Both the position numbers and the translations under genes were made by a program. This document shows positions 868 to 31,816 of a stretch of 31,937 nucleotides of DNA, piece by piece. Numbering within the stretch: the first letter of the stretch is position 1; each line of letters starts with the position of its first letter. This DNA is from a virus: positions 1 to 31,937 of IMG/VR virus record IMGVR_UViG_3300047668_000712. The stretch is one strand, 5' to 3'. The notes beneath the pieces are model-generated. The model ran no database searches, was not told where the DNA came from, and saw only the letters and a program-made list of their open reading frames with translations.

Positions 868-929
868 GTTATAAAATGTTTTGTTAATAAGAATAAAAGT
901 ATTATCTTTGAGTAATGGCAATTAAGTCA
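868..929 (+). promoter_or_regulatory. Composite early promoter, copy 1
   Basis: The -33 box TTTG (880-883) and -7 box TATCTTTG (903-910) are 19 nt apart, matching the Bacteroidetes promoter consensus. The -33 box lies inside a GTTAT-N14-ATAAG inverted-repeat frame (868-891). TGGCAATTAAGTCA (916-929) begins exactly 6 nt after the last base of the -7 box, at or just past the expected start of transcription. The same layout recurs at 24575-24636 and 31735-31796, and without the downstream box at 31105-31147. It should drive 947 onward. Confidence 0.85.
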
Positions 930-946
930 TACGTAAATCAGAACAA

Positions 947-8958: not shown

Positions 8959-8980
8959 AAAGCAAATTTTAGAATTAAAT

Positions 8981-8990
8981 ACGTTATATA
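8981..8990 (+). promoter_or_regulatory. Late-type element ACGTTATATA, copy 2
   Basis: This copy lies three bases before the ATG at 8994, in the short gap after the tape measure gene. The surrounding AATTAAATACGTTATATAA is identical to the corresponding sequence before 1739, which makes chance resemblance unlikely. It marks the start of the head-maturation segment. Confidence 0.6.
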
Positions 8991-8993
8991 AAT

Positions 8994-9602
8994 ATGAAAA
9001 TAATTGAGCTAGTATTAGATGAAGAACAAGAAGAAAGTGGAATTGAAGCTATTTCAATAGTAGAAAACCCTGCCATAGAATCTGACTTTGTTGCCTTAAA
9101 AACTGAAGAAATTAAATTAGCAGAAGTAAGTTCTGAAAAAAAAATATTGCTAGGTGCATTATTAATTCCAAATAAACCTATTTATAGAAGTGGGGACGAT
9201 GGTGAATATTATATTTTTTTCTCAAAAGACACAGTTGCTAAAGCATCACAGATGTATCTTAAAAATGGGTATCAAAATAATTCAACCTTAGAACACGACA
9301 AGGCTTTAAATGGACTGACTTTAGTAGAAAGTTGGCTAGTAGAAGACGAAGTACACGATAAATCTCGCAAGTATGGGCTAAACGTACCCGTTGGTACTTG
9401 GATGGGTGCGGTAAAAGTGAACAACGATGATGTTTGGAATGAATACGTTAAAACAAATAAGGTGAAAGGCTTTTCAATAGAGGGTTACTTTGCTGATAAA
9501 ATGGAAAGACCTAAACAATTAGCTAAAGATGAACTGTCAGAAAATGAAAAAGAAATCATTTTAGTAAACCAAATAAAAGAAATTCTAACAAATGGCGAAT
9601 AG
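8994..9602 (+). CDS. Prohead serine protease (XkdF/S78-like)
   Basis: A 202-aa protein similar in pattern to XkdF-like prohead proteases. Visible hallmarks are ENPAIESDFVAL near 24-35, HD at 101-102 in the NNSTLEHD stretch, GLTLVESWLVED near 107-118, and GFSIEGYF at 159-166. By analogy with S78-type proteases, H101 and S161 are the best candidates for catalytic His and Ser. It would process scaffold and capsid precursor during head maturation, fitting its place just before scaffold-like and major capsid genes. The stop codon overlaps the next small ORF. Confidence 0.8.
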   Translation: MKIIELVLDEEQEESGIEAISIVENPAIESDFVALKTEEIKLAEVSSEKKILLGALLIPNKPIYRSGDDGEYYIFFSKDTVAKASQMYLKNGYQNNSTLEHDKALNGLTLVESWLVEDEVHDKSRKYGLNVPVGTWMGAVKVNNDDVWNEYVKTNKVKGFSIEGYFADKMERPKQLAKDELSENEKEIILVNQIKEILTNGE

Positions 9603-9744: not shown

Positions 9745-9772
9745 GCGAAAATACAAATTTTAATAAATAAAC

Positions 9773-9785
9773 CGTTATATATATA
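9773..9785 (+). promoter_or_regulatory. Late-type element, variant CGTTATATATATA
   Basis: CCGTTATATATATAATT precedes the ATG at 9789 of the scaffold-like gene. It keeps CGTTATATA but has C instead of the leading A, and a longer A/T run separates it from the start codon (3 nt after the extended TATATA tract). It is therefore a weaker match than copies 1, 2, 4 and 5. Confidence 0.45.
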
Positions 9786-9788
9786 ATT

Positions 9789-12103: not shown

Positions 12104-12135
12104 GGATAATGATTTTACAAATTACTAAAATTATT

Positions 12136-12145
12136 ACGTTATATA
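12136..12145 (+). promoter_or_regulatory. Late-type element ACGTTATATA, copy 4
   Basis: This copy starts 33 nt after a strong terminator and ends 4 nt before the ATG at 12150. Because transcription must restart here to express the portal operon, this copy is the best argument that the element is part of a promoter. No TANNTTTG box is visible in the 46-nt gap. Confidence 0.65.
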
Positions 12146-12149
12146 TGTA

Positions 12150-12578
12150 ATGATTATACTTACAACATCAGAATTAGCACAAAGCCTATCAGTAGTACCT
12201 AGAGAATATGCAAACTCATTTTCTATGAGTATTAGAGATGACAGCACCAATGTTACAAAAATTTACAGTATTATTGATGCAATAAAAGAAGGTAATTATT
12301 TAACCTTTGAGAATATATTTAACCCTAAATTAATTGAAGCTCATTATTTTAACCTATCTTTATTTGTTGATTACAATGTTTGGAATACTAATTACGAATT
12401 TTGGGAGTTAGACAATTTTAAATGGAATGAAAACGAAAGACAAATTTTAGACATTTATAATGATAAAATATTCTGTACAGACCAAGATGTAAACCAATTG
12501 CAAAATGACCATTACAAACTAAATAAAGGTCAGTATATAGAATACGAAGGATTTGATAATACTTATACAGTACCATAA
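12150..12578 (+). CDS. Conserved-type structural protein upstream of portal (142 aa)
   Basis: 142 aa with no Cys clusters. The C-terminal half (HYFNLSLFVDYNVWN, EFWELDNFKWN, FCTDQDV) is rich in aromatic residues, a pattern I associate with structural proteins of Bacteroidetes phages. First gene of the portal operon, immediately after the late element, and 2 nt before the portal start, so probably a head-tail joining or minor structural protein. Specific role unknown. Confidence 0.6.
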   Translation: MIILTTSELAQSLSVVPREYANSFSMSIRDDSTNVTKIYSIIDAIKEGNYLTFENIFNPKLIEAHYFNLSLFVDYNVWNTNYEFWELDNFKWNENERQILDIYNDKIFCTDQDVNQLQNDHYKLNKGQYIEYEGFDNTYTVP

Positions 12579-15229: not shown

Positions 15230-15330
15230 TTTACAAACCAAAAGAAAAGAACGTTCAGAAACTTAAAACTTTCTTAAAAAAAACTGAAAATAATAAAACA
15301 AAAAAAATAAAAAATGGCAACTCTATTTAA
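15226..15330 (+). CDS. Tiny Lys-rich ORF (34 aa), doubtful
   Basis: ATG overlaps the stop codon of the connector gene (ATGA) and the frame ends 17 nt inside the fibre gene. The product, MIYKPKEKNVQKLKTFLKK and onward, is nearly half Lys/Asn. Coupled overlaps favour translation, but the A-rich sequence gives open frames easily, so it may be only leader sequence. Confidence 0.35.
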   Translation: MIYKPKEKNVQKLKTFLKKTENNKTKKIKNGNSI

Positions 15331-18103
15331 TACTAGAATATCTGATACATACGAGGGTTTAATAAAAACAATTGATAATGCAGCTATTTCTGCATCTTTA
15401 AAAGAACTGTCAGATGGTTCAGGAAATTTAACGGGTTTATTTTTAAATTCAGCAGGAGATTTTAAGGTTACTAATATTTTAGAGTTTGGTACTTTAAAAG
15501 ATTCTAATAATGTAGGAATATTAACTTTTATTACAGCAGCAGATGGAATTGAAAATTTTGATAATGATATTTCTGTACCTACAACAGCAGCGGTTAAGTT
15601 ATATGTAGATACCAAATTTGCTACAACAGATACTTTAGCAGAGATTTTAGTATTTGGAAACACAACAAGCGGAACGGATATTGAAATTACTGCAGGTGAC
15701 GATATTAAAATTTCAGATTCAAGTAAATTATTATTTGGTAATGGTGCTACAGATTTTGAGATTTACCACGATGGTACGGGTTCTTTTATTTCAGATTTAG
15801 GAACGGGTAATTTAGAAATTGCTAGTAATTTATTAAAAATATTAAGTGCTACGGGGGAAAATATGATTTTAGCCCAACAAGATAATGGGGTACAATTGTA
15901 TTGTGATAATTCAAAGAAACTTGAAACAACGTCTGTGGGGGCAACTGTGACGGGTAGCTTAACAGTTACTAATAAAATCTTAGGAGAACTAGACACAACA
16001 GTAATAGGGACAACTCAGGCGGTTGCAAATAACTCTACTTTAATTGCAACAACTGCATACGCAGATTTAGCTAATTTAGCTCAAATAAATTCTAATAGTT
16101 CAAATATTAATACGATAAATACAAATATTAATACGATAAATACTACCGCAGAGTTTTTAGTAAATAAAGGACAACCTAGCGGTTATGTACCTCTAGACGC
16201 AGGGGGTAAAATTTTAGAATCATATTTGCCTGCATCCATTATTGGACAGTTAAATTATGTAGGTACGTGGGACGCAGCTAATGATACGCCAACACTACCA
16301 AACCCTACCACAGTTAATGGCGATTATTATATTGTAAATGCAGCAGGAACTTATTTAGGTGTTTCTTACGGTATAGGCGATTGGATAGTCTCCAATGGTA
16401 TTGCGTGGCAAAAAATAGACAACACAGAATCGGTTTCTACAGTTTTTGGTAGACTAGGTAATATTTTAGCTAACTCGACAGATTATGATGCTTTTTACCC
16501 AACGCTTACAAATTTACCAAACTTAGTAGCTAATAATGCAGCAGTTGCAGCAAACACTTTAAAAGTAGGAATTACTACACAGCAAGCGGCAGACATAACT
16601 ACAAACAATGCTAAAATTTCATTTGATACTACAAGCTCTACTAGGCTAGCTAATACAAGCGGTACAAACACAGGCGACCAAAATTTAGCAGAGGTTTTAA
16701 GTTTAGACAATACTACAAATGGAAACGATATTGCTATAAGTGCAGCCGATAATATTACACTTACTGACACTAGTAAAATTATAATGGGTGCAGATAGTGA
16801 TTTAGAAACATACCACGACGGCATTAAAGGTCATATTAAAAATATTACAGGAGCTTTAAATATAGAATCTAATAATATAGAGATTGGTACTTTTAATAAT
16901 TCAGCAACGGGTCTACGGTCTATAGCAATAGGTGCTAACACAACAGCTAGTAATACCGACGCTATAGCAATGGGAGAAAATACTACAGCAACAGGTATTA
17001 GTTCTACTGCAATTGGTAAAGCAACCAACGCAAGTGCAGACGGAGCTACATCAATGGGAAATGGAACTACTGCAAGTGGAGTAAATTCTACGTCTATGGG
17101 GGTTAATACGTTAGCAAGTGGAGCGTACTCTACGTCGACAGGAAATAATACTACCGCTAGTGGTGACAATTCTTTTTCGGCAGGAGCTAACACAACAGCA
17201 AGTGGCGAGAGGTCTACAGCAACAGGAAACAATACACTCGCAGGTGGTAATTCAGCTACCGCAATAGGGACTAATACAGAAGCAAGAGCTACAAGTTCTT
17301 TTGCTACAGGTATTAATACGTTAGCAAGTGGAAATCACTCTACGGCAATGGGAAATGGAACAGTAGCAAGTGGTACAAATTCTATATCAGCAGGTTCAAG
17401 TACTACGGCAGGTGGTAACCAATCTTTTGCAGTAGGTTTTTCTACAACAGCTAATGGTAATGTTGCTACAGCAATGGGAAATTCAACAGTAGCGAGTGGT
17501 GTTTCGTCTACCGCAATGGGGCTTTATTCAGTAGCAAGTGGGGTTGCATCTACAGCAACAGGTTATGATACCGAAGCAAGCGGTGCTAACTCTACAGCAA
17601 TGGGAAAAGAAACGACAGCTAGTGGTCTAAATTCTTTTGCTACAGGTGGTTCAACTACCGCATCGGGAGATTATTCTACCGCATCGGGTAGAAGTACATT
17701 ATCAAGCGGTAGCCACTCTTTTGCAGCAGGTTTTTCTACTATAGCAAGTGGAGAGTCTTCTACAGCTATGGGTGTTAACTCTACAGCAAGCGGCGATAAA
17801 TCAGTATCAATAGGCGATAACACTATAGCTAACTCGTTTTCAGAAATAGCGATAGGTAGAAATCCTGTAGCAAAAACAGGTAATGCAACAATATGGGTTG
17901 CAACGGATAGGTTATTTAGTATTGGTAACGGGGCGTCAGCAAGTTCGCAAAGTATGGCTTTAGAAATATTAAAAAATGGTATAACTGTTTTACCTGCAGT
18001 AGTTTCGTTAAACTTTGCAGACGATACAGCAGCCGCTACAGGTGGTGTGCCTGTTGGTGGTTTATACCATACATCGGGTGCTATAAAAATAAGACTAACA
18101 TAA
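15314..18103 (+). CDS. Tail fibre / receptor-binding protein with YadA-like beta-roll repeats
   Basis: 929 aa, the largest protein. The N-terminal half (1-530) is Ser/Thr/Asn/Ala-rich beta structure, with a short Asn/Ile coiled-coil-like stretch (NINTINTNINTINT) near residue 270 and a GTWDAANDTPTLPN...GDWI region near 315-360. Residues about 532-856 hold 22-23 repeats of about 14 residues with the pattern (S/T)xAxGxxTxASGxx, like the left-handed beta-roll of YadA/trimeric autotransporter heads. The last part is a C-terminal end piece. Such fibres are trimeric and bind the host surface. Expression would be late, from the portal operon. Confidence 0.8.
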   Translation: MATLFNTRISDTYEGLIKTIDNAAISASLKELSDGSGNLTGLFLNSAGDFKVTNILEFGTLKDSNNVGILTFITAADGIENFDNDISVPTTAAVKLYVDTKFATTDTLAEILVFGNTTSGTDIEITAGDDIKISDSSKLLFGNGATDFEIYHDGTGSFISDLGTGNLEIASNLLKILSATGENMILAQQDNGVQLYCDNSKKLETTSVGATVTGSLTVTNKILGELDTTVIGTTQAVANNSTLIATTAYADLANLAQINSNSSNINTINTNINTINTTAEFLVNKGQPSGYVPLDAGGKILESYLPASIIGQLNYVGTWDAANDTPTLPNPTTVNGDYYIVNAAGTYLGVSYGIGDWIVSNGIAWQKIDNTESVSTVFGRLGNILANSTDYDAFYPTLTNLPNLVANNAAVAANTLKVGITTQQAADITTNNAKISFDTTSSTRLANTSGTNTGDQNLAEVLSLDNTTNGNDIAISAADNITLTDTSKIIMGADSDLETYHDGIKGHIKNITGALNIESNNIEIGTFNNSATGLRSIAIGANTTASNTDAIAMGENTTATGISSTAIGKATNASADGATSMGNGTTASGVNSTSMGVNTLASGAYSTSTGNNTTASGDNSFSAGANTTASGERSTATGNNTLAGGNSATAIGTNTEARATSSFATGINTLASGNHSTAMGNGTVASGTNSISAGSSTTAGGNQSFAVGFSTTANGNVATAMGNSTVASGVSSTAMGLYSVASGVASTATGYDTEASGANSTAMGKETTASGLNSFATGGSTTASGDYSTASGRSTLSSGSHSFAAGFSTIASGESSTAMGVNSTASGDKSVSIGDNTIANSFSEIAIGRNPVAKTGNATIWVATDRLFSIGNGASASSQSMALEILKNGITVLPAVVSLNFADDTAAATGGVPVGGLYHTSGAIKIRLT
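16909..17883 (+). repeat. Tandem 14-residue coding repeats (about 22-23 units) in the fibre gene
   Basis: Each unit encodes roughly (S/T)-x-A-x-G-x-x-T-x-A-S-G-x-x, 42 nt long. Units are imperfect, with conserved Gly, Thr and Ala-Ser-Gly positions and variable outer residues such as Met/Ala/Thr/Val before Gly. The design matches YadA-head beta-rolls. Nearly identical spacing with variable surface positions suggests expansion by duplication and diversification for receptor binding. Confidence 0.8.
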
Positions 18104-20028: not shown

Positions 20029-20059
20029 TTGTGGTTATCAACTAAAGTGTTTATATTTG
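20029..20059 (+). promoter_or_regulatory. Early-type promoter for the replication block
   Basis: TTG (20029-20031), then 20 nt, then TATATTTG (20052-20059), matching the Bacteroidetes consensus. The leader GTGTATAATTAA after the -7 box is shared with the promoter at 31105. It has a diverged form of the GTTAT/ATAAC frame and no TGGCAATTAAGTCA box. It sits just after terminators and before 20089, whose leader carries an AGAACA box. Confidence 0.75.
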
Positions 20060-22601: not shown

Positions 22602-23108
22602 ATGAAAAATAAGATAATATTGATTGCGGAAAAAAATGAAATTTGGATTGACATAGTGCAGTCATTTGGTTGTACTAAGGAGACCGCAGAAGATATTGTG
22701 CAGGAAATGTATATAAAAATACAGAAAACACTTAAAAACGGTGTTGCTGTTGATATTATGTACAATGGTGAAGAAATCAATTACTATTATATATTTAAAT
22801 GTTTAAATTCTATTTTCATAGATTTAAAAAGGCGAGAAAAAAACAGAACAATGGTATCAATAGAGGATTACGAAAAATTAGGTGTGAAATGGGGCTTAGA
22901 CCTTGAGGTTGATTTTGAACAAGCATATAGTAAAATGCAGATTGAACTTAAAAAAATGTATTGGTACGACAGAAAAGTTTTTGAAATAATAAATTCAGGT
23001 GAAAGTATTGCAGAATTATCTAGACAATCAGACATTCCGTATTATTCACTTTATAATACATATCATAAAGTAAAGGATAAACTAAAAAAAATTTACAATG
23101 AGATTTGA
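22602..23108 (+). CDS. Sigma-70-like transcription factor (putative)
   Basis: 168 aa. Residues 18-42 (IVQSFGCTKETAEDIVQEMYIKI) resemble sigma region 2 (core binding), residues 60-82 the 2.3/2.4 end (YYYIFKCLNSIFIDLKRRE), and residues 124-164 a region-4 type helix-turn-helix (KVFEIINSGESIAELSRQSDIPYYSLYNTYHKVKDKL). Regions 1, 3 and most of 2 are missing or short, so it is an ECF-like or reduced sigma. Co-translated with the ATPase gene (2-nt gap) and overlapping the next start. It is the best phage candidate for recognising the late element ACGTTATATA. Another HTH regulator is the alternative. Confidence 0.6.
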   Translation: MKNKIILIAEKNEIWIDIVQSFGCTKETAEDIVQEMYIKIQKTLKNGVAVDIMYNGEEINYYYIFKCLNSIFIDLKRREKNRTMVSIEDYEKLGVKWGLDLEVDFEQAYSKMQIELKKMYWYDRKVFEIINSGESIAELSRQSDIPYYSLYNTYHKVKDKLKKIYNEI

Positions 23109-24574: not shown

Positions 24575-24636
24575 CTTATAAAATACTTTGTGGATAACTT
24601 TATTTGTTTTATATTTGAATGTTGGCAATTAAGTCA
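24575..24636 (+). promoter_or_regulatory. Composite early promoter, copy 2, with exact DnaA box
   Basis: CTTAT-N14-ATAAC frame (24575-24598); TTTG (24587-24590), 19 nt, TATATTTG (24610-24617); TGGCAATTAAGTCA at 24623-24636, 5 nt after the -7 box as in copies 1 and 3. TGTGGATAA (24589-24597), the exact reverse complement of the consensus DnaA box TTATCCACA, overlaps the -33 box. This element serves the gene at 24657 and perhaps the following small genes. Confidence 0.85.
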
Positions 24637-24656: not shown

Positions 24657-24971
24657 TTGGAAAATTTAAAAGAATTATTAGGAATTTTAAAAGTAGGTGG
24701 TACATTAACTTTTACACACAAAAGCTCATTAGGATTAGGAGACCCTGAATTGTATGTAATTAGAAAATTTAATGAAGGTTCAGGCGAAAGGGGTGCTATT
24801 GATTCAGGTTTTTCAGTTTGTAGATATGATAACTCAGAGGGAGCGATGAATACTAGGTCAATTTCAAGGGGTTACTTAAACCTTTACACTTTTGATATGT
24901 TTGATAATCTAATCACCACAAGAATAATTGTAAGGGATATGACATTGGTTGCAGTAGATGTTGAAGAATAA
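24657..24971 (+). CDS. Early-type protein with TTG start (104 aa)
   Basis: 104 aa beginning ENLKELLGILKVGG after a TTG start (24657); no in-frame ATG is near, and ATT at 24654 is the only other alternative. The leader has AGAATA (24648-24653), a variant of the AGAACA box. Mixed beta/helix with a Gly/Ser-rich middle. First gene behind the composite promoter with DnaA box. Followed by the G/C hairpin cassette (24981). Confidence 0.65.
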   Translation: MENLKELLGILKVGGTLTFTHKSSLGLGDPELYVIRKFNEGSGERGAIDSGFSVCRYDNSEGAMNTRSISRGYLNLYTFDMFDNLITTRIIVRDMTLVAVDVEE

Positions 24972-24980
24972 TAATAATCA

Positions 24981-25000
24981 GGGGTTTAAAAGCCCCTTTT
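24981..25000 (+). terminator. GGGG/CCCC hairpin with TTTT, third cassette copy
   Basis: GGGG (24981-24984) pairs with CCCC (24993-24996) around an 8-nt TTTAAAAG loop; TTTT follows. AATAATAATCA precedes it just after a stop codon, as at 1401. An AGAACA box (25007-25012) then leads to the ATG at 25015. Probably leaky, because the next gene has no separate promoter. Confidence 0.55.
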
Positions 25001-25014
25001 AAAAACAGAACATT

Positions 25015-25191
25015 ATGTTAGAAAAGTATAAACAAAATTTAAGAATAGACGGAGACAAAGTTTGGAGTTATACAACTCACGTTGCAACAATTTCAGGTTC
25101 AAAATTATTTCAACTAGGTTATTGGAGTATGACTACTCAAAAGCATATCAACTATGTTGCAAATCAATTAGATTTAGACCTAGTAAAATAA
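25015..25191 (+). CDS. Small early-type protein (58 aa)
   Basis: 58 aa; AGAACA box two bases before the ATG. Mostly soluble with aromatic residues (KVWSYTTHVATISGSKLFQL). Stop overlaps the next start (TAATG). An overlapping frame starting inside it is rejected in favour of this frame, which has the leader box. No family recognised. Confidence 0.6.
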   Translation: MLEKYKQNLRIDGDKVWSYTTHVATISGSKLFQLGYWSMTTQKHINYVANQLDLDLVK

Positions 25192-25367
25192 TGAGAGGCA
25201 ATTATAATATGCGGATTTCTGAAATGAAAACGGGCGGATTAAAAATTAGAATTGAAAACCTAAAAACAGAAAAAGTTGCAGTATTTGAGGCAAGTAAAAA
25301 AGCAATATTAAATGGAAAATTATTTTTTTGGAAATTTAGTTTTGCTATAAATAAAACCCTAGCCTAA
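25191..25367 (+). CDS. Small basic early-type protein (58 aa)
   Basis: 58 aa, basic, beginning MRGNYNMRISEMKTGGLKIR. I place the start at the ATG overlapping the upstream stop (TAATG), not at the TTG near 25062, which would overlap the whole previous gene. The next gene overlaps its stop in the same way. Strand-forming N-terminal half; role unknown. Confidence 0.6.
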   Translation: MRGNYNMRISEMKTGGLKIRIENLKTEKVAVFEASKKAILNGKLFFWKFSFAINKTLA

Positions 25368-25516
25368 TGAAAATAAATGATGCATTATGGAGCGAGGTTA
25401 AAAAAAGAATAGAAAAACATATTCAGGACGATGAAAATATTACTGATGTGAATATAAAATTAAACATCAAAGAATCAATAGAAAGGAATTATTTACAAAT
25501 CAATTTAACAATTTAA
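25367..25516 (+). CDS. Small early-type protein (49 aa)
   Basis: 49 aa, a Lys/Glu/Ile/Asn-rich helix followed by a short strand (NYLQINLTI). Starts in the stop codon of the upstream gene (TAATG), 10 nt before the next start. Function unknown. Confidence 0.55.
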   Translation: MKINDALWSEVKKRIEKHIQDDENITDVNIKLNIKESIERNYLQINLTI

Positions 25517-25526
25517 AACAGAACAA

Positions 25527-25790
25527 ATGAGAAACAGAATTATATTAAAAGATGACATAAGCATATTAGGTGACAGGACTGTAAGCGGATTTAACTTTGA
25601 TTGGGATGCAGAAGATATGGAATACAGTTGCAGGGGGACGGTTTACTATGATGATGACCACGATGAAATGTGCGACCCAAGATTAGAGGATGCAGCAATG
25701 GAACTAGAAAACCAATTAGAAGACAGAGGTTTTATTACAAGTTACGAGGCAGGCGAAAAGGGATGGGTTTATATTAGAATACACGATTAA
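25527..25790 (+). CDS. Acidic small protein (87 aa)
   Basis: 87 aa and strongly acidic, with a DDDHDE run near 42-47. The AGAACA box (25520-25525) ends one base before its ATG. Acidic small early proteins in phages are sometimes DNA mimics that block host enzymes, but no motif supports that here beyond composition. Its stop overlaps the next start (TTAATGG). Confidence 0.65.
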   Translation: MRNRIILKDDISILGDRTVSGFNFDWDAEDMEYSCRGTVYYDDDHDEMCDPRLEDAAMELENQLEDRGFITSYEAGEKGWVYIRIHD

Positions 25791-26023
25791 TGGAAACACA
25801 AAGAAAAAAGATTTTAGAAGCAAAAGAGTTTTTAGAATCACAAGGATATTCCGCAATGTTTTTATGGCATACAGATGACGTTTGCAATAATTATGATGTA
25901 GACCAAGACGAGGCTTTAAATATCTTAGAAGATGCATTGCAGTCAGGATATATAACCTCACAGATTTTTGAAGCAATTGATGTTATAGCAGAAATAAATG
26001 GACATAAACCTAAAAATGAATAA
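25790..26023 (+). CDS. Small conserved-type phage protein (77 aa)
   Basis: 77 aa with a helix-rich N-terminus and the segment LWHTDDVCNNYDVDQDEALNILEDAL (about 24-49, given as motif); this pattern of LWHxDDV...Y...DEAL resembles a widespread small phage protein family of unknown function. It overlaps the previous stop by one base and precedes 26025. No enzymatic motif. Confidence 0.65.
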   Translation: METQRKKILEAKEFLESQGYSAMFLWHTDDVCNNYDVDQDEALNILEDALQSGYITSQIFEAIDVIAEINGHKPKNE

Positions 26024-26024
26024 A

Positions 26025-26330
26025 ATGAATTTACAAGAACAATCAGAACAAGAAAGAATAATTCAGAACACAAAAGAATTAAACGAAAGAATAGACCACT
26101 TAGAAAAAAGGTTACACGATGCATTACATCATACATACGTTGGAGAAACTTATGATTTATATGCAATGAATGGAGAATTACATATTACTTATCGGGGTGG
26201 AGAAAGAGAACTGACAATGTGTACTGAATCCCTTTTTAAGGACTTACCTTTCATTATTGACCAAGTTTGTAAGGAACAGAAGAAGATGAATAAAATGTAC
26301 CTTAAACAGATTAAAAATACCTTAAAATAA
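26025..26330 (+). CDS. Small phage protein with coiled-coil N-terminus (101 aa)
   Basis: 101 aa from the ATG at 26025, one base after the upstream stop; earlier ATGs at 25998 and 26016 would overlap that gene more. Helical, Glu/Gln/Arg-rich N-terminus (about 1-40, heptad-like HLEKRLHDAL), then a compact beta-like segment (YGEL...TYRGGERELTM) and a basic end. The next gene starts within its stop codon. Confidence 0.6.
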   Translation: MNLQEQSEQERIIQNTKELNERIDHLEKRLHDALHHTYVGETYDLYAMNGELHITYRGGERELTMCTESLFKDLPFIIDQVCKEQKKMNKMYLKQIKNTLK

Positions 26331-27043
26331 TGATTTTACTTGTAGATGCAGACAGCTTGATATTTGCAAGTTGTTATAAAAAAAGGGAAACCCCTGAAGA
26401 TGAAAAATATTATACAGATATATTAGATTCAAAAAAGAAATTTTACAATCAATATATGCAAATAATTAATCATTTAGAAACAATGTACCCCATTGACAGG
26501 GTGATAACGTTTAGCGGTTCTTTAGGGAACTTTAGGAAGCTAATAACTAAGAAGTATAAAGCTAACAGAAGTGATGACCTTAGACCTCCGCTTTTAGGTG
26601 AAATGCATCAACACGTAAAAGAACATTACGATAGTGTTTTTGGCTATGGAATTGAAACTGACGATATGGTTGCAAGATATTGGAAACAACTTTCTACCGA
26701 GTTTGGCAGAAATGACGTAATGATTGTTTCGATTGATAAAGACTATAAACAGTTTCCTTGTTTGATGTATAATTACCATTATAAACATAAAGAAGTTTTA
26801 GACATTTCAGAAGACGAGGCAAGATATAATTTCTATGAGCAAATGATTGCAGGAGACACAGCAGATAATGTAAATTATTTTAAAGGTAAAGGTAAAAAAT
26901 TTGCTGAAAAATACTTTGCAGACTGTCATTCTGAATATTCATATACCAAAAAATTATATCAATTATTTAAAGAAAAATACAAATCAAAAGCAAAAGAAAA
27001 ATATTCTGAATGCTATAATTTATTGAAACTAAGAACTGATTAA
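26330..27043 (+). CDS. FEN-type 5'-3' exonuclease
   Basis: 237 aa, a phage FEN/T7 gp6-like 5'-3' exonuclease or flap endonuclease. Visible motifs: VDADSL with D6 and D8; an Arg/Lys-rich KANR segment near 77-80; IETDDMVA with E109, D111 and D112; SIDKDYKQ with D136 and D138; and AGDTADNV with D176 and D179. The Asp/Glu clusters are metal ligands of this family, which trims 5' flaps during replication and degrades host DNA. Starts with the previous stop codon (TAATG) and is followed one base later by the DnaA-like gene. Confidence 0.8.
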   Translation: MILLVDADSLIFASCYKKRETPEDEKYYTDILDSKKKFYNQYMQIINHLETMYPIDRVITFSGSLGNFRKLITKKYKANRSDDLRPPLLGEMHQHVKEHYDSVFGYGIETDDMVARYWKQLSTEFGRNDVMIVSIDKDYKQFPCLMYNYHYKHKEVLDISEDEARYNFYEQMIAGDTADNVNYFKGKGKKFAEKYFADCHSEYSYTKKLYQLFKEKYKSKAKEKYSECYNLLKLRTD

Positions 27044-27044
27044 A

Positions 27045-27554
27045 ATGATAAACATAAGACCTGAAGAAATAGTAAGAAAAATAACAAACTTATCAGGGTA
27101 CGACCCCTATGAGAATACGAGAAAAAGAAACCAAGTAGAAGTTAGGGCTTTGGCTTGTTATCTAATGAGAGAAAAGCTAAATATGAGGTGGACGAATATT
27201 ACTAAAGTTTTTGAAGATAATGGCAAACAGATGCATCACGCTTCTGCTATCCATTTGGTAAAGAACTATAAATTCTATAAATTAGCAAATAAAGATTTAC
27301 AAAAATATGAAGATTCTTTTAATTTTTTACAGGGATTGGATTACGAAGAAGTAAATAGGATAAGCTATTTAGAAGATAAACTATCAGAATTGCAAGATAA
27401 ATATGACACGCTTGAAGAAAATTTACAACATCCATTAGTGAAATTGGTTTCAGATATTACAGATGAAAAAAACAAGTGGGAATTAGCAGACCAAATTGTA
27501 ATTGTAAAAAAATCGTGGGCTTGGAAAAATAAAACTAATTTAAACGTTATATAG
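27045..27554 (+). CDS. DnaA domain IV-like DNA-binding protein
   Basis: 169 aa. Residues about 25-72 match the pattern of DnaA domain IV (DNA-box-binding HTH): KRNQVEVRALACYLMREKLNM then WTNITKVFEDNGKQMHHASAIH, where the DHTTV-like signature is HHASAIH (64-70). DnaA domains I-III (AAA+ ATPase) are absent, and a helical C-terminal part (90-168) follows. It would bind DnaA-box-like sites without melting an origin. Its targets may be the exact DnaA boxes at 24589 and 31749. Last codons of this gene contain the late element for the next gene. Confidence 0.65.
   Translation: MINIRPEEIVRKITNLSGYDPYENTRKRNQVEVRALACYLMREKLNMRWTNITKVFEDNGKQMHHASAIHLVKNYKFYKLANKDLQKYEDSFNFLQGLDYEEVNRISYLEDKLSELQDKYDTLEENLQHPLVKLVSDITDEKNKWELADQIVIVKKSWAWKNKTNLNVI
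27544..27553 (+). promoter_or_regulatory. Late-type element ACGTTATATA, copy 5
   Basis: This copy lies in the last codons of the DnaA-like gene (Asn-Val-Ile-stop) and ends 3 nt before the ATG at 27557. It would start the ParB-methyltransferase-glycosyltransferase-terminase operon, consistent with late packaging genes. Confidence 0.55.
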
Positions 27555-27556
27555 AT

Positions 27557-28144
27557 ATGAAGATTGAAAAGGTAAAAATAAATAGCATCACAGAAAACCC
27601 TGATAACCCTAGAACAATAAAAGGTGAAAAATTTAACAAATTAGTTAAGAGTATAAAAGACTTTCCTGAAATGTTAAAAATTAGACCAATTGTTGTAAAT
27701 GATGACAATGTGATACTTGGCGGAAATATGAGATATAAGGCGAGTATTCGAGCAGGTTTAAGTGAAGTCCATATTATTAGAGCAAGTGGCTTGACAGATG
27801 AGCAACAGAAGGAATTTATAGCAAAGGACAATGTAGGTTTTGGCGAATGGGATTGGGATGTTTTAGCTAATGAATGGGATGTAGAAAAGCTTGAAGATTG
27901 GGGTATTGAAGTACCATCTTTAAATGATTTTATGGATGAACACGAACCTGAAATAGAATTTAGCGAGTTTTTAGATGAAAGCAATAACTATGTGGTTTTG
28001 TTCTTTAAAAATGATATTGATTGGCTACAAGCGCAAACTCATTTTAGTTTAAAATCAGTAAGCTCTAAACGTTCAAACGGAAAGGCTTGGAGTAAAGGAA
28101 TCGGACGAGTAATTAATGGAGCAGAATATTTAAACAAAAAATAA
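27557..28144 (+). CDS. ParB/Srx-fold N-terminal domain protein
   Basis: 195 aa. NPDNPRTI (14-21), LVKSIKDF, PIVVNDDNVILGGNMRYKASI (about 44-64) and GGNMRYKA at 55-62 match the ParB N-terminal nuclease-like fold (GG(N/H)xR motif). Such phage ParB-domain proteins can be nucleases or CTP/DNA-binding adaptors and are common beside DNA methyltransferases and modification genes. It lacks the ParB central HTH. First gene behind the late element at 27544; overlaps the methyltransferase start by one base. Confidence 0.75.
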   Translation: MKIEKVKINSITENPDNPRTIKGEKFNKLVKSIKDFPEMLKIRPIVVNDDNVILGGNMRYKASIRAGLSEVHIIRASGLTDEQQKEFIAKDNVGFGEWDWDVLANEWDVEKLEDWGIEVPSLNDFMDEHEPEIEFSEFLDESNNYVVLFFKNDIDWLQAQTHFSLKSVSSKRSNGKAWSKGIGRVINGAEYLNKK

Positions 28145-28719
28145 TGCAAAATAATTTAAAAGAAGTTAGGGAACGTATTTATTTTAATAAATCAACATTA
28201 AAAGATATTGAATTTGATATTTTAAACAGGCGACATATTGAAAGATATGCTTTAATTAGACAGTATTTGTATGGTGATGTTTTAGATGTGAGTTGTGGCT
28301 CAGGATATGGCTCTTATTTAGTTTCTAATAACCCTGACATAAATAGTGTGCTAGGTTTGGATATAAGCAAAGAAGGTATTGATTGGGCTAAAGCTAATTT
28401 TGAAACTGAAAAGGTAAAATTCCTGCAAAAGAGAATTGAAGACCATACAAGTAAAGCAGATGTTTTAGTAAGTATTGAAACAATTGAACATTTAGAAAAT
28501 CCGCATATATTAAATGATTTAGCAGAAAGGTGTCAGGTTGACCAAATAATTGTTTCTTACCCAAGTAAAAAAACAACTCATTATAATTCATTTCATTTTA
28601 GTGATTTTATAGATGACGAAATTATTAGAATATTCTCAAATTTTAAACTTGTGGATGTTATAGATTTACACAGAGAATGTAGAATTTTAAAATTACAAAG
28701 ATATGATTCAAGTTTATAG
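28144..28719 (+). CDS. Class I SAM-dependent methyltransferase
   Basis: 191 aa. Motif I VLDVSCGSGYG (46-56), D73 in GLDISKEG (acidic loop) and SIETIEHL (110-117) show a Rossmann-fold class I SAM methyltransferase. There is no (N/D/S)PPY motif of the amino-methyl DNA methyltransferases, so its target may be a small molecule, a modified base, or a sugar. The next gene begins inside its end (overlap 17 nt). Its pairing with the glycosyltransferase suggests a joint modification step. Confidence 0.75.
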   Translation: MQNNLKEVRERIYFNKSTLKDIEFDILNRRHIERYALIRQYLYGDVLDVSCGSGYGSYLVSNNPDINSVLGLDISKEGIDWAKANFETEKVKFLQKRIEDHTSKADVLVSIETIEHLENPHILNDLAERCQVDQIIVSYPSKKTTHYNSFHFSDFIDDEIIRIFSNFKLVDVIDLHRECRILKLQRYDSSL

Positions 28720-29446
28720 CCCAAGTTACAAAAGAGCAGGTATTTGCAAAACTCATAAATATCTGCCCTTTATAACCTATGTGGTTATGGAAAGCGAAGC
28801 AGAAGATTACAAAAAAGTTCACGATAAAATTTGGGTAATACCTGATGAGGTACAAGGAAATTTAGCAAGAGTTTGGAACTACATAAAGGACAATTCTGAA
28901 TCTAAAAATATAGTCACAATAGATGACGACATAAAATATATAGGCAGATGGAATGGTGAAAAACAAAACAAATTAGATGCGGACGGGGTTTTAAGCCTAA
29001 TACAAGAGGGTTTCCAATTAGCTGAAGATTTGGATGTTAAATATTGGGGACTAAATTGTTTAATGGATAAGGGCTCATATAGGGAATATACTCCATTTGG
29101 AACTGTATCTTACATAGGTGGACCATTTCAAGCACACGCAGATAATGATTTACGATACGATGAAGAAATACCTTTAAAAGAAGATTACGATATGACGTTG
29201 CAAATATTGAGTAAATACAGAAAAAATCTTAGATTAAATATGTACCATTATGTTTGTGAACAAGCAACAATAGTTGGCGGATGTGCTGATTACAGAAATG
29301 TAGATAAAGAAAAAGAAATGAATATTTTGTTGCAAAAAAAATGGGGTTCTAAAATAATAAAACAAGATAATAGTCAAAAGAAAAATAGCAGGAAAAGAAA
29401 ATACGATTTTAACCCAATATTAAAAGTACCAATAAAAGGCATCTAA
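28703..29446 (+). CDS. TET-associated-type glycosyltransferase (TAGT-like)
   Basis: 247 aa. SPSYKRAG (6-13), IDDD (73-76; a DxD-like metal/nucleotide-sugar motif), GGPFQA (139-144) and LRYDEEIPLKEDYD (150-163) match the pattern of the phage TET-associated glycosyltransferase family, which is proposed to glycosylate modified DNA bases. Predicted activity is sugar transfer to hydroxylated bases or another acceptor. No TET/JBP oxygenase or hydroxymethyl-pyrimidine synthase is visible here, so the acceptor is unclear. Overlaps the methyltransferase, so both are co-translated. Confidence 0.7.
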   Translation: MIQVYSPSYKRAGICKTHKYLPFITYVVMESEAEDYKKVHDKIWVIPDEVQGNLARVWNYIKDNSESKNIVTIDDDIKYIGRWNGEKQNKLDADGVLSLIQEGFQLAEDLDVKYWGLNCLMDKGSYREYTPFGTVSYIGGPFQAHADNDLRYDEEIPLKEDYDMTLQILSKYRKNLRLNMYHYVCEQATIVGGCADYRNVDKEKEMNILLQKKWGSKIIKQDNSQKKNSRKRKYDFNPILKVPIKGI

Positions 29447-29602
29447 ATGGAATCTAAAATAATATTAACTTCAATAAATGGAAAAGATGCTTACAAGAAA
29501 GGAGTTGACGGTTACTGTTATACATTTAATAAAAACGAAAAAAGTAGAATAAAAGCATATGATAATGCTAATAAATCTTACATAAGCAATGGACGAAAGT
29601 AG
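29447..29602 (+). CDS. Small protein before terminase (51 aa)
   Basis: 51 aa, beginning MESKIILTSINGKDAYKKG and Lys/Asn/Tyr-rich. It starts directly after the glycosyltransferase stop codon and overlaps the terminase small subunit start by 14 nt, indicating coupled translation. Too short for a firm identification. Confidence 0.55.
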   Translation: MESKIILTSINGKDAYKKGVDGYCYTFNKNEKSRIKAYDNANKSYISNGRK

Positions 29603-29948
29603 ACACATAAAAAAGGAATCATTATTAAAATCATTAGAGCAGAGTTTGGGTATTGTGACGGTAGCTTGTAAGAAAGCAAACATACCTAGAAGTACGTATT
29701 ATAAATGGCTAAAAGAAGATGAGGCATTCGCTATTGAAGTTAAGGATATTGAAAACATTGCTTTAGATTTTGCAGAGTCACAATTGCATAAACAGATTGG
29801 TGCGGATAACACAAGTGCTACCATATTCTATTTAAAGACTAAAGGTAAAAATAGGGGGTACATTGAAAGGCAAGAGATAACAGGTGCTGATGGTATGCCT
29901 ACTAATTTTCAAATTGAAATAATTGGAGCAACTAAAGATAAAGACTAA
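29589..29948 (+). CDS. terS: Terminase small subunit
   Basis: 119 aa. An N-terminal HTH (about 18-45, LEQSLGIVTVACKKANIPRSTYYKWLKED) is typical of small terminases binding packaging sites; the segment TSATIFYLKTKGKNRGYIER (about 80-99, used as motif) fits the family. It would recognise phage DNA and present it to TerL. It overlaps the TerL frame by 26 nt and lies next to it, the usual order. Confidence 0.75.
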   Translation: MDESRHIKKESLLKSLEQSLGIVTVACKKANIPRSTYYKWLKEDEAFAIEVKDIENIALDFAESQLHKQIGADNTSATIFYLKTKGKNRGYIERQEITGADGMPTNFQIEIIGATKDKD

Positions 29949-31086
29949 TATAGTTTACGACCATTTATTAAGAACAGATAAAAAAATTGTAGTTGAGCAA
30001 GGCGGAACAAGGTCAGGCAAAACTTACAATATTTTGTTGTGGATTATATTCGAGTACTGTACACGTAATGAAAATAAGATTGTAACGATTTGTAGAAAGT
30101 CATTCCCATCACTTAGGGCAACTGTTATGAGAGATTTTATTAGCATATTACAAGGACAGAATATGTACAAAGAAAGTAATCATAACAAGTCTAATTCTGA
30201 ATATTATCTATTTGGAAACCTGATTGAATTTATTTCACTTGACCAACCTCAAAAGGTCAGGGGACGGAAAAGGGATTTACTATTTGTGAATGAAGGAAAC
30301 GAATTGTATTACGAAGATATGCAACAATTACTCTTTAGAACTCAAGACAGGGTAATATTAGACTTTAATCCATCAGACGAATACCATTGGATATACGATA
30401 AACTAATTACAAGGGCTGACTGTGTTTTTCATAAAACAACTTATTTAGACAATCCTTTTATTGAACAAACTATTATTGATGAAATAGAAAGACTAAAAGA
30501 TACAGATGAACAGTATTGGCAAATCTATGGACTAGGTGAAAGGGCTTCAAGTAGGTCTACAATCTTCAATTACACAGAAGTCAACCAAATCCCTATTGAA
30601 GCAAATTTAGTGGCATACGGAATGGATTTCGGTTATACGAATGACCCGAGCACTTTGGTTTCAGTTTATACTTGGGATTATAACCTTTATGTGAAGGAGC
30701 ATCTTTACAGAACTCAAATGACAACTCAAGACATAAACACGTTTCTAAGGGACGAAGAACTTGAAAGTAACCCAATATATGCTGATAGTGCAGAACCTCG
30801 CTTAATCGAAGAATTAAGACGTATGGGACATAATGTATTCTCAAGTGTAAAAGGTAAAAATTCCATCAATGCAGGAATTGATTTATTAAAGAGATACAAG
30901 ATACACATACTTAAAGATTCTACAAATGCTATTTCAGAGTTTAGAAACTATAAATGGAAGGAAGACAAAAGCGGTACACTAACAAATGTACCTGAAGATA
31001 AGCATAACCATATTATTGACCCAACACGTTACGCTACTTATTCTATTTTGTCAAGACCAAACTTTGGAAAATATACCCTACATTAA
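29923..31086 (+). CDS. terL: Terminase large subunit
   Basis: 387 aa. Walker A GGTRSGKT (27-34), Walker B-like DLLFVNEGNE (118-127) and the nuclease-domain segment GMDFGYTNDPS (about 233-243, with D235) define a PBSX-type packaging ATPase/nuclease. The start is the TTG at 29923, directly after an in-frame TAA; there is no ATG before Walker A, so a non-ATG start is required. The 26-nt overlap with terS favours coupling. It is slightly short but has both domains. Confidence 0.85.
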   Translation: MEQLKIKTNIVYDHLLRTDKKIVVEQGGTRSGKTYNILLWIIFEYCTRNENKIVTICRKSFPSLRATVMRDFISILQGQNMYKESNHNKSNSEYYLFGNLIEFISLDQPQKVRGRKRDLLFVNEGNELYYEDMQQLLFRTQDRVILDFNPSDEYHWIYDKLITRADCVFHKTTYLDNPFIEQTIIDEIERLKDTDEQYWQIYGLGERASSRSTIFNYTEVNQIPIEANLVAYGMDFGYTNDPSTLVSVYTWDYNLYVKEHLYRTQMTTQDINTFLRDEELESNPIYADSAEPRLIEELRRMGHNVFSSVKGKNSINAGIDLLKRYKIHILKDSTNAISEFRNYKWKEDKSGTLTNVPEDKHNHIIDPTRYATYSILSRPNFGKYTLH

Positions 31087-31104: not shown

Positions 31105-31147
31105 GTTATAAAATGCTTTGTTGATAACTTTTAATCATATATCTTTG
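31105..31147 (+). promoter_or_regulatory. Composite early promoter without downstream box
   Basis: GTTAT-N14-ATAAC frame (31105-31128) with TTTG at 31117-31120, then 19 nt, then TATCTTTG (31140-31147). TGTTGATAA (31119-31127) differs from the DnaA box reverse complement at one base. The TGGCAATTAAGTCA box is absent; the leader is GTGTATAATTAA, shared with 20052. It follows the TerL stop by 18 nt and drives 31170 onward. Confidence 0.8.
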
Positions 31148-31471: not shown

Positions 31472-31735
31472 ATGGGATTCAGATACAATTCAAACGAAGA
31501 TATAAAAGTAGCATTAAAAGACAGTAACGGGATTCGTTTAACGTATGAATTAATGCATATAAAAAATAACATTATAAACAATTATGTGATTCAGGCAAAA
31601 ATTGGTGGTTTACTTGACTGTAAAGAAAGGGGACTTTTTATAATAGCAACATCGTGTGAACGGTTGAATAATAATGAAGAAACTATGACAGATGAATATG
31701 CAATAGATTTATTAGAAGATTATTTACAAGAATAG
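31472..31735 (+). CDS. Small early-type protein (87 aa)
   Basis: 87 aa; AGAACA (31464-31469) ends two bases before the ATG. Mixed strand/helix protein with a beta-like middle (YVIQAKIGGLLDCKERGLFIIATSC) and acidic end. No family recognised. Its stop codon overlaps the start of the GTTAT frame of the next promoter. Confidence 0.65.
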   Translation: MGFRYNSNEDIKVALKDSNGIRLTYELMHIKNNIINNYVIQAKIGGLLDCKERGLFIIATSCERLNNNEETMTDEYAIDLLEDYLQE

Positions 31736-31796
31736 TTATTAAATGCTTTGTGGATAACTAAAAAAGTATTATCTTTGAATAATGGCAATTAAGTCA
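31735..31796 (+). promoter_or_regulatory. Composite early promoter, copy 3, with exact DnaA box
   Basis: GTTAT-N14-ATAAC frame (31735-31758); TTTG (31747-31750), 19 nt, TATCTTTG (31770-31777); TGGCAATTAAGTCA at 31783-31796, again 5 nt after the -7 box. TGTGGATAA (31749-31757) is an exact DnaA box reverse complement at the same place as in copy 2. It drives the gene that crosses the circular junction. Confidence 0.85.
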
Positions 31797-31816
31797 TTGT
31801 TTAAAAACAGAACAAA

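Follow-up and report, generated by a model that had tools for sequence, protein, structure and literature searches.

The stretch of DNA analysed here, referred to as the window, is the complete IMG/VR record IMGVR_UViG_3300047668_000712, a virus contig of 31,937 bases. It carries a 113-base terminal direct repeat, so that the genome closes into a circle of about 31,824 bases. We infer a Flavobacteriia-type host, because the promoters are of the Bacteroidota type and the only named nucleotide relatives are Flavobacterium phages, which match over one 345-bp stretch. The phage group that carries the element described below is uncultured and Flavobacteria-type. Among isolate phages, none had a terL above 60% identity and no relative of the protein encoded at 27045 was detectable; the group therefore has no cultured model. 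Among the proteins scanned, no integrase and no lysogeny module could be recognised. Tandem 42-nt repeats at 16917–17794 correspond to a 14-residue repeat in a 929-aa protein at 15314, whose repeat part we take to resemble a YadA-head-like fibre.

Promoters and DnaA-box matches in the window

Four host-type promoters of the form TTTG-N19-TAnnTTTG, with their TTTG at 880, 24587, 31117 and 31747, belong to a 75-nt repeat family (D3) with copies at 856, 24563, 31093 and 31723. The first, third and fourth lie in a stretch of small genes that separates terL from the structural genes, and the second precedes the gene run 24657–31086, which includes 27045. The features are as follows:

868–891 (+): palindromic element copy 1, GTTAT-N14-ATAAG, arms 869–872 and 887–890, TTTG 880–883; variable pair TA, without a DnaA box
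903–910 (+): −7 box of promoter 1, TATCTTTG
915–930 (+): 5′ leader hairpin of promoter 1, ATGGC-AATTAA-GTCAT
1508–1516 (−): third exact DnaA-box match, inside an ORF (1434 onwards) and away from the TTTG-N19-TAnnTTTG promoters
24575–24598 (+): palindromic element copy 2, CTTAT-N14-ATAAC around TTTG 24587–24590; exact DnaA box 24589–24597 on the right arm
24610–24617 (+): −7 box of promoter 2, TATATTTG, upstream of the 24657–31086 gene run
24623–24636 (+): 5′ leader hairpin of promoter 2, TGGC-AATTAA-GTCA
27045–27554 (+): 169-aa protein with a DnaA domain IV fold (residues 1–96) and a predicted leucine-zipper helix
31105–31128 (+): palindromic element copy 3, GTTAT-N14-ATAAC around TTTG 31117–31120, right after terL; variable pair TG, one mismatch from a DnaA box
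31140–31147 (+): −7 box of promoter 3, TATCTTTG
31735–31758 (+): palindromic element copy 4, GTTAT-N14-ATAAC around TTTG 31747–31750; exact DnaA box 31749–31757
31770–31777 (+): −7 box of promoter 4, TATCTTTG
31782–31797 (+): 5′ leader hairpin of promoter 4, ATGGC-AATTAA-GTCAT

The promoters share with those read by the Bacteroidota primary sigma factor the −33 TTTG, the −7 TAnnTTTG, their order and the spacing of about 19 nt (PMC2483708, PMC6847099, PMC9723704), although in the phage a conserved mirror-image element encloses the −33 motif, which a survey of F. johnsoniae reported to be much less evident than the −7 motif (PMC6847099). In each of the four, an inverted repeat (G/C)TTAT-N14-ATAA(G/C) straddles the TTTG, giving a two-fold symmetric site that overlaps the promoter; this symmetry does not extend to the inner parts of the arms. 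A further promoter at 20029–20059 (TTGTGGTTATCAAC...TTTATATTTG, with GTTATCAAC in the spacer) has similar counterparts in L001, L003 and L019 and may represent the same half-sites arranged in a second way.

The original prediction centred on exact DnaA boxes within these promoters. Matches to TTATCCACA on the minus strand are indeed present at 1508–1516, 24589–24597 and 31749–31757, and the expectation of fewer than one by chance was sound (0.32 in dinucleotide shuffles, three being reached in 2 of 100). The boxes at 24589 and 31749 share one offset within the promoters, as proposed, and the imperfect copies also exist, with one mismatch to TTATnCACA at 31119 (TTATCAACA) and two at 882 (TTATTAACA). 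As copies of family D3, however, the two promoter boxes are not independent. Exact-box enrichment was thus set aside as a main argument, being modest and including two paralogous copies among three, and with up to one mismatch allowed the window is not enriched in DnaA boxes (14 versus 10.1 ± 2.9). The copy at 1508, coding and without a promoter, was judged to be a chance match.

A stem-loop with an AATTAA loop lies at the predicted mRNA 5′ end of three of the four promoters. Among 88 unique leaders of relatives, 20 contain a hairpin (shuffled mean 6.4, maximum 14), and the stem covaries in 18 aligned leaders, with 23 double-change cells against 8.3 in shuffles, in a set that is biased in that most leaders were picked for pairing. 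The structure is perhaps an mRNA-stabilising 5′ hairpin.

Conservation of the element in related phages

Relatives were first found by homology to the 27045 protein and terL, independently of any motif. The 73 unique regions after terL (terL above 70% identity) are the counterpart of the window's copy at 31117, and 32 of them carry an in-register TTAT-N8-TTGT-N2-ATAA, against 0.05 in shuffles. In contrast, the exact DnaA box was found at this promoter position in two of the 73, both from the closest relatives (terL 97% identity or more); such a scarcity at the equivalent site had been named beforehand as evidence against the prediction. Most relatives read TTTGTTTATAA in its place. The variable pair that decides whether a DnaA box is formed is TT in 21 of the sites after terL, TA in 6, GG in 2, GT in 2 and TG in 1. 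In a wider collection, biased by motif search, GG ranks second among the states, with 14 of 59 unique sites, and we regard it as a recurrent variant that is frequent in the window's lineage.

The arms were assessed in 42 related promoters chosen by their −33 and −7 boxes and their position after terL only, with the arms left free. TTAT stands at −11 in 36 and ATAA at +7 in 32, and the base just outside the arms is G or C in 37 (TTAT side) and 35 (ATAA side), in DNA of about 30% G+C. Mirror symmetry peaks at the axis of the element, with an overlap of 0.72 compared with 0.35–0.53 at shifted axes. On sequence evidence, these counts, together with the box in two of 73, indicate that the palindrome is the conserved feature and the DnaA box a variant of its right arm; the comparison of relatives thereby shows the TTATCCACA matches to be one of the forms that the right half-site can take.

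A matrix built from relatives only (terL 70–95% identity), with the −33 positions masked, ranked the four window promoters top on the plus strand (26.1, 25.6, 25.0 and 19.1) and picked the same four on the minus strand (19.2, 16.6, 12.0 and 10.3); 8 random sequences scored 11.9 at best. In a scan of IMG/VR with the left arm, the right arm was present in 59 of 120 unique promoters, and +4 was always T. A −7 box at the element's spacing accompanied 70 of 201 matches in viral loci but none of 81 chance matches in bacterial genomes; the element is phage-specific. Matches to the 22-bp pattern in a genome-wide host scan occurred in all phyla, none with a −7 box, and were discarded as chance; one promoter-pattern match with an exact box in a Flavobacterium genome (L594) falls inside an apparent ORF. 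Taken as a sequence pattern, the repeat is very probably a conserved operator-like element.

The regions after terL of five phages (L033, L043, L045, L070 and L073) have a −7 box TAnnTTGY instead of TAnnTTTG. TAnnTTGY is the form reported for SM5, an alternative sigma motif of F. psychrophilum (PMC9723704), and a different host sigma factor may serve these phages.

The DnaA domain IV-like protein

The original prediction also described the 27045 product as resembling DnaA domain IV without an AAA+ domain, and both statements hold. An AlphaFold2 model computed from 15 relatives, with a mean pLDDT of 81.9 and values of about 90 for residues 11–90, has the domain IV fold: structures of DnaA domain IV on DnaA boxes match it best (VIA Z 12.4 and 12.0, rmsd 2.4–2.7, 88–89 residues), 1J1V coming first (Z 12.4, rmsd 2.4, 89 residues). 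DnaA accounts for all six top entries, and the next entry, an unrelated one, reaches a Z of 6.5. Foldseek alone gave no match below E 0.001 (E 0.026). The protein matches Pfam Bac_DnaA_C at 8e-6, under the gathering score, and all 15 relatives match this model (best 9.4e-10). With 169 aa and Pfam and NCBIfam matches to the C-terminal domain only, it has the fold of domain IV but not the AAA+ ATPase domain III of a DnaA initiator.

The alignment uses an E. coli DnaA sequence and residue numbering that are in part presumed. Compared with DnaA domain IV (PDB 1J1V, 3PVP), the protein keeps the equivalents of Arg399 (Arg26, invariant in all 35 phage proteins aligned) and His434 (His65, kept in nearly all of them), whereas Asp433 and Thr435 are replaced, extra residues precede the recognition helix and a predicted leucine zipper is added. 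The latter is a heptad I/L/Y pattern over residues 106–127 (I106, L109, L113, L116, Y120, L123 and L127); it suggests that the protein could be a dimer, as an inverted repeat needs. In DnaA, Arg399 reads TTA and the recognition helix reads TnCACA (PMC5742627), and the retention of TTAT and loss of CACA in the phage site fit an invariant Arg399 equivalent combined with changed recognition-helix residues. No clear rule linked recognition-helix residues to the GG state among the aligned phage proteins.

Members of the 27045 family occur in 14 of the 16 records with the element and also in 10 of the 11 that lack a near-exact match to it, several of which have degenerate versions after terL. Of 21 records with a 22-bp match (mostly chance), five have a DnaA-like match, three of them strong; in these three and in one of the two weak cases the sites have a degenerate −7 box. 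Co-occurrence was not accepted as proof of binding by 27045, because 27045 and the sigma-like protein 22602 are both core genes of the group and 27045 is no better than 22602 in its co-occurrence with the element. A search of 199 Flavobacteriaceae genomes, run without a positive control, gave no DnaA-like protein at 1e-12, and a literature search for a phage DnaA-domain-IV regulator returned nothing relevant.

Possible functions of the element

From these observations, we tentatively propose, at a confidence a little below an even chance, that the elements are early-promoter operators for a phage regulator, with 27045 as the candidate and repression as the simplest action. In this hypothetical scenario, (i) the host's main sigma factor would recognise the sites as early promoters, and each would contain an operator, namely the inverted repeat of roughly 24 bp, conserved as sequence, with the half-site 5′-(A)(G/C)TTATWAA and centred on the −33 element; (ii) a phage-encoded dimer would bind the repeat and block or time early transcription, since the repeat covers the −33 TTTG and sigma contact would most simply be blocked; (iii) the dimer may be 27045, a stand-alone DnaA domain IV with a leucine zipper, whose Arg26 would read the TTA of each half-site and whose diverged recognition helix would account for the loss of the CACA part; and (iv) the bound dimer would shut off the early genes, with feedback on the gene run behind promoter 24587. 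Binding by some phage protein is somewhat more likely than not, and, given binding, repression is favoured over activation. That this protein is 27045 is a conjecture somewhat short of probable, although it is the best-fitting candidate. Read as facing 9-mers, TTATWAAAT and TTATnnACA, 4 bp apart, the element would place the recognition-helix contact regions 10 bp apart; this is one turn of DNA and thus the usual spacing of helix-turn-helix dimers. The early operators of the lambda OR/OL type likewise overlap early promoters as palindromes and are repeated at several of them, but their half-sites and DNA-binding fold differ from those considered here.

The strongest alternative, which we consider unlikely but worth weighing, is that no regulator is involved and the site acts as a host promoter of very high strength, having an extended, ompA-like −33 (TTTGTWWATAA) and an upstream A/T-rich RNA polymerase contact (TTATTAAAT). 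Nine of the 11 full-pattern matches in 397 Flavobacteriaceae genomes stand ahead of a gene for an OmpA-like protein and read TTTGTTAATAA or TTTGTTGATAA; a host tRNA promoter has the extended −33 TTTGTnnATAA too; and early phage promoters are expected to be strong, as has been reported for the ompA promoter of F. johnsoniae (PMC2483708). The right arm may in part simply reflect promoter strength. Yet the extended −33 is rare in host promoters, the left side of ompA lacks GTTATWAA, and the mirror symmetry, the fixed G/C flanks and the near-invariant left TTAT are left unexplained. The OmpA-like gene promoter of the Flavobacteriaceae genomes (L583–L593) has the extended −33 TTTGTTAATAA in common with the phage early promoters.

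It is rather improbable that the palindrome serves a different phage-encoded factor, for instance a small uncharacterised early protein or the sigma-like protein 22602–23108 (PHROG 1740 at 3.7e-6; 54–68% identity across the group). The latter is present in 16 of 18 records tested and weakly matches NCBIfam sigma-factor models; however, the −7 box is of the ordinary host type and thus needs no alternative sigma factor, a mirror-image site is not expected for a sigma factor, and the structural genes carry a different candidate motif. This ACGTTATATAAGTATG-like repeat (families D12 and D18) stands just before structural genes at 1723–1741, 8980–8997, 9770–9787 and 12133–12151 and is a candidate late-gene promoter or translation signal, perhaps for 22602.

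Improbable to a slightly greater degree is that host DnaA binds the boxes at 24589 and 31749 and couples early transcription to host replication, or that the phage protein competes with it. Two of the four promoters have perfect consensus 9-mers, GG promoters recur in several lineages, and the frequency of GG in the wider collection exceeds that predicted from independence of its two positions. On the other hand, the copies at 880 and 31117 lack an exact box, as do all but two of the 73 relatives, GG is replaced by TT, TA, TG or GT while the arms stay, and in one Flavobacterium genome the 9-mer is not in excess of a reversed control (39 versus 51). Compared with the DnaA box TTATnCACA of E. 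coli oriC (PMC5742627), which the phage sites match exactly twice, TTAT and, on the right arm, ACA are kept in most copies, but AA usually takes the place of the CC pair (giving TTATAAACA on that strand), and the sites are inverted pairs within promoters rather than an origin cluster. A replication origin with iteron-like initiator sites for the DnaA-like protein is very unlikely: 27045 adjoins a 5′–3′ exonuclease gene and about 1.6 kb of the circular map holds three of the four sites, but all four are locked to promoters at the exact −33 register ahead of genes, many relatives have a single site, the three exact boxes are not clustered, and the GC-skew check suggested for the origin gave no switch, the cumulative skew rising steadily along the co-oriented genes.

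In summary, the promoters, the repeated −33 element and the domain IV fold without AAA+ stand from the earlier reading, but the DnaA box is not the conserved feature, and a phage protein paired with the palindrome fits better than competition with host DnaA. A more specific version of the operator reading, which we offer as speculative and rather doubtful, is that a DnaA DNA-binding domain without its ATPase and with a leucine zipper acts as a dimeric transcription regulator on inverted pairs of half DnaA boxes, the right half-site in the window's lineage having drifted or been selected to a perfect host box that would allow cross-talk with host DnaA. The DnaA-box story thus gives way to a well-supported regulatory element common to an uncultured phage group, together with a candidate protein. 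If the pairing of the two holds, the DNA-binding domain of a replication initiator would have been turned into a stand-alone phage regulator, and this would provide a tool to control strong promoters in Bacteroidota.
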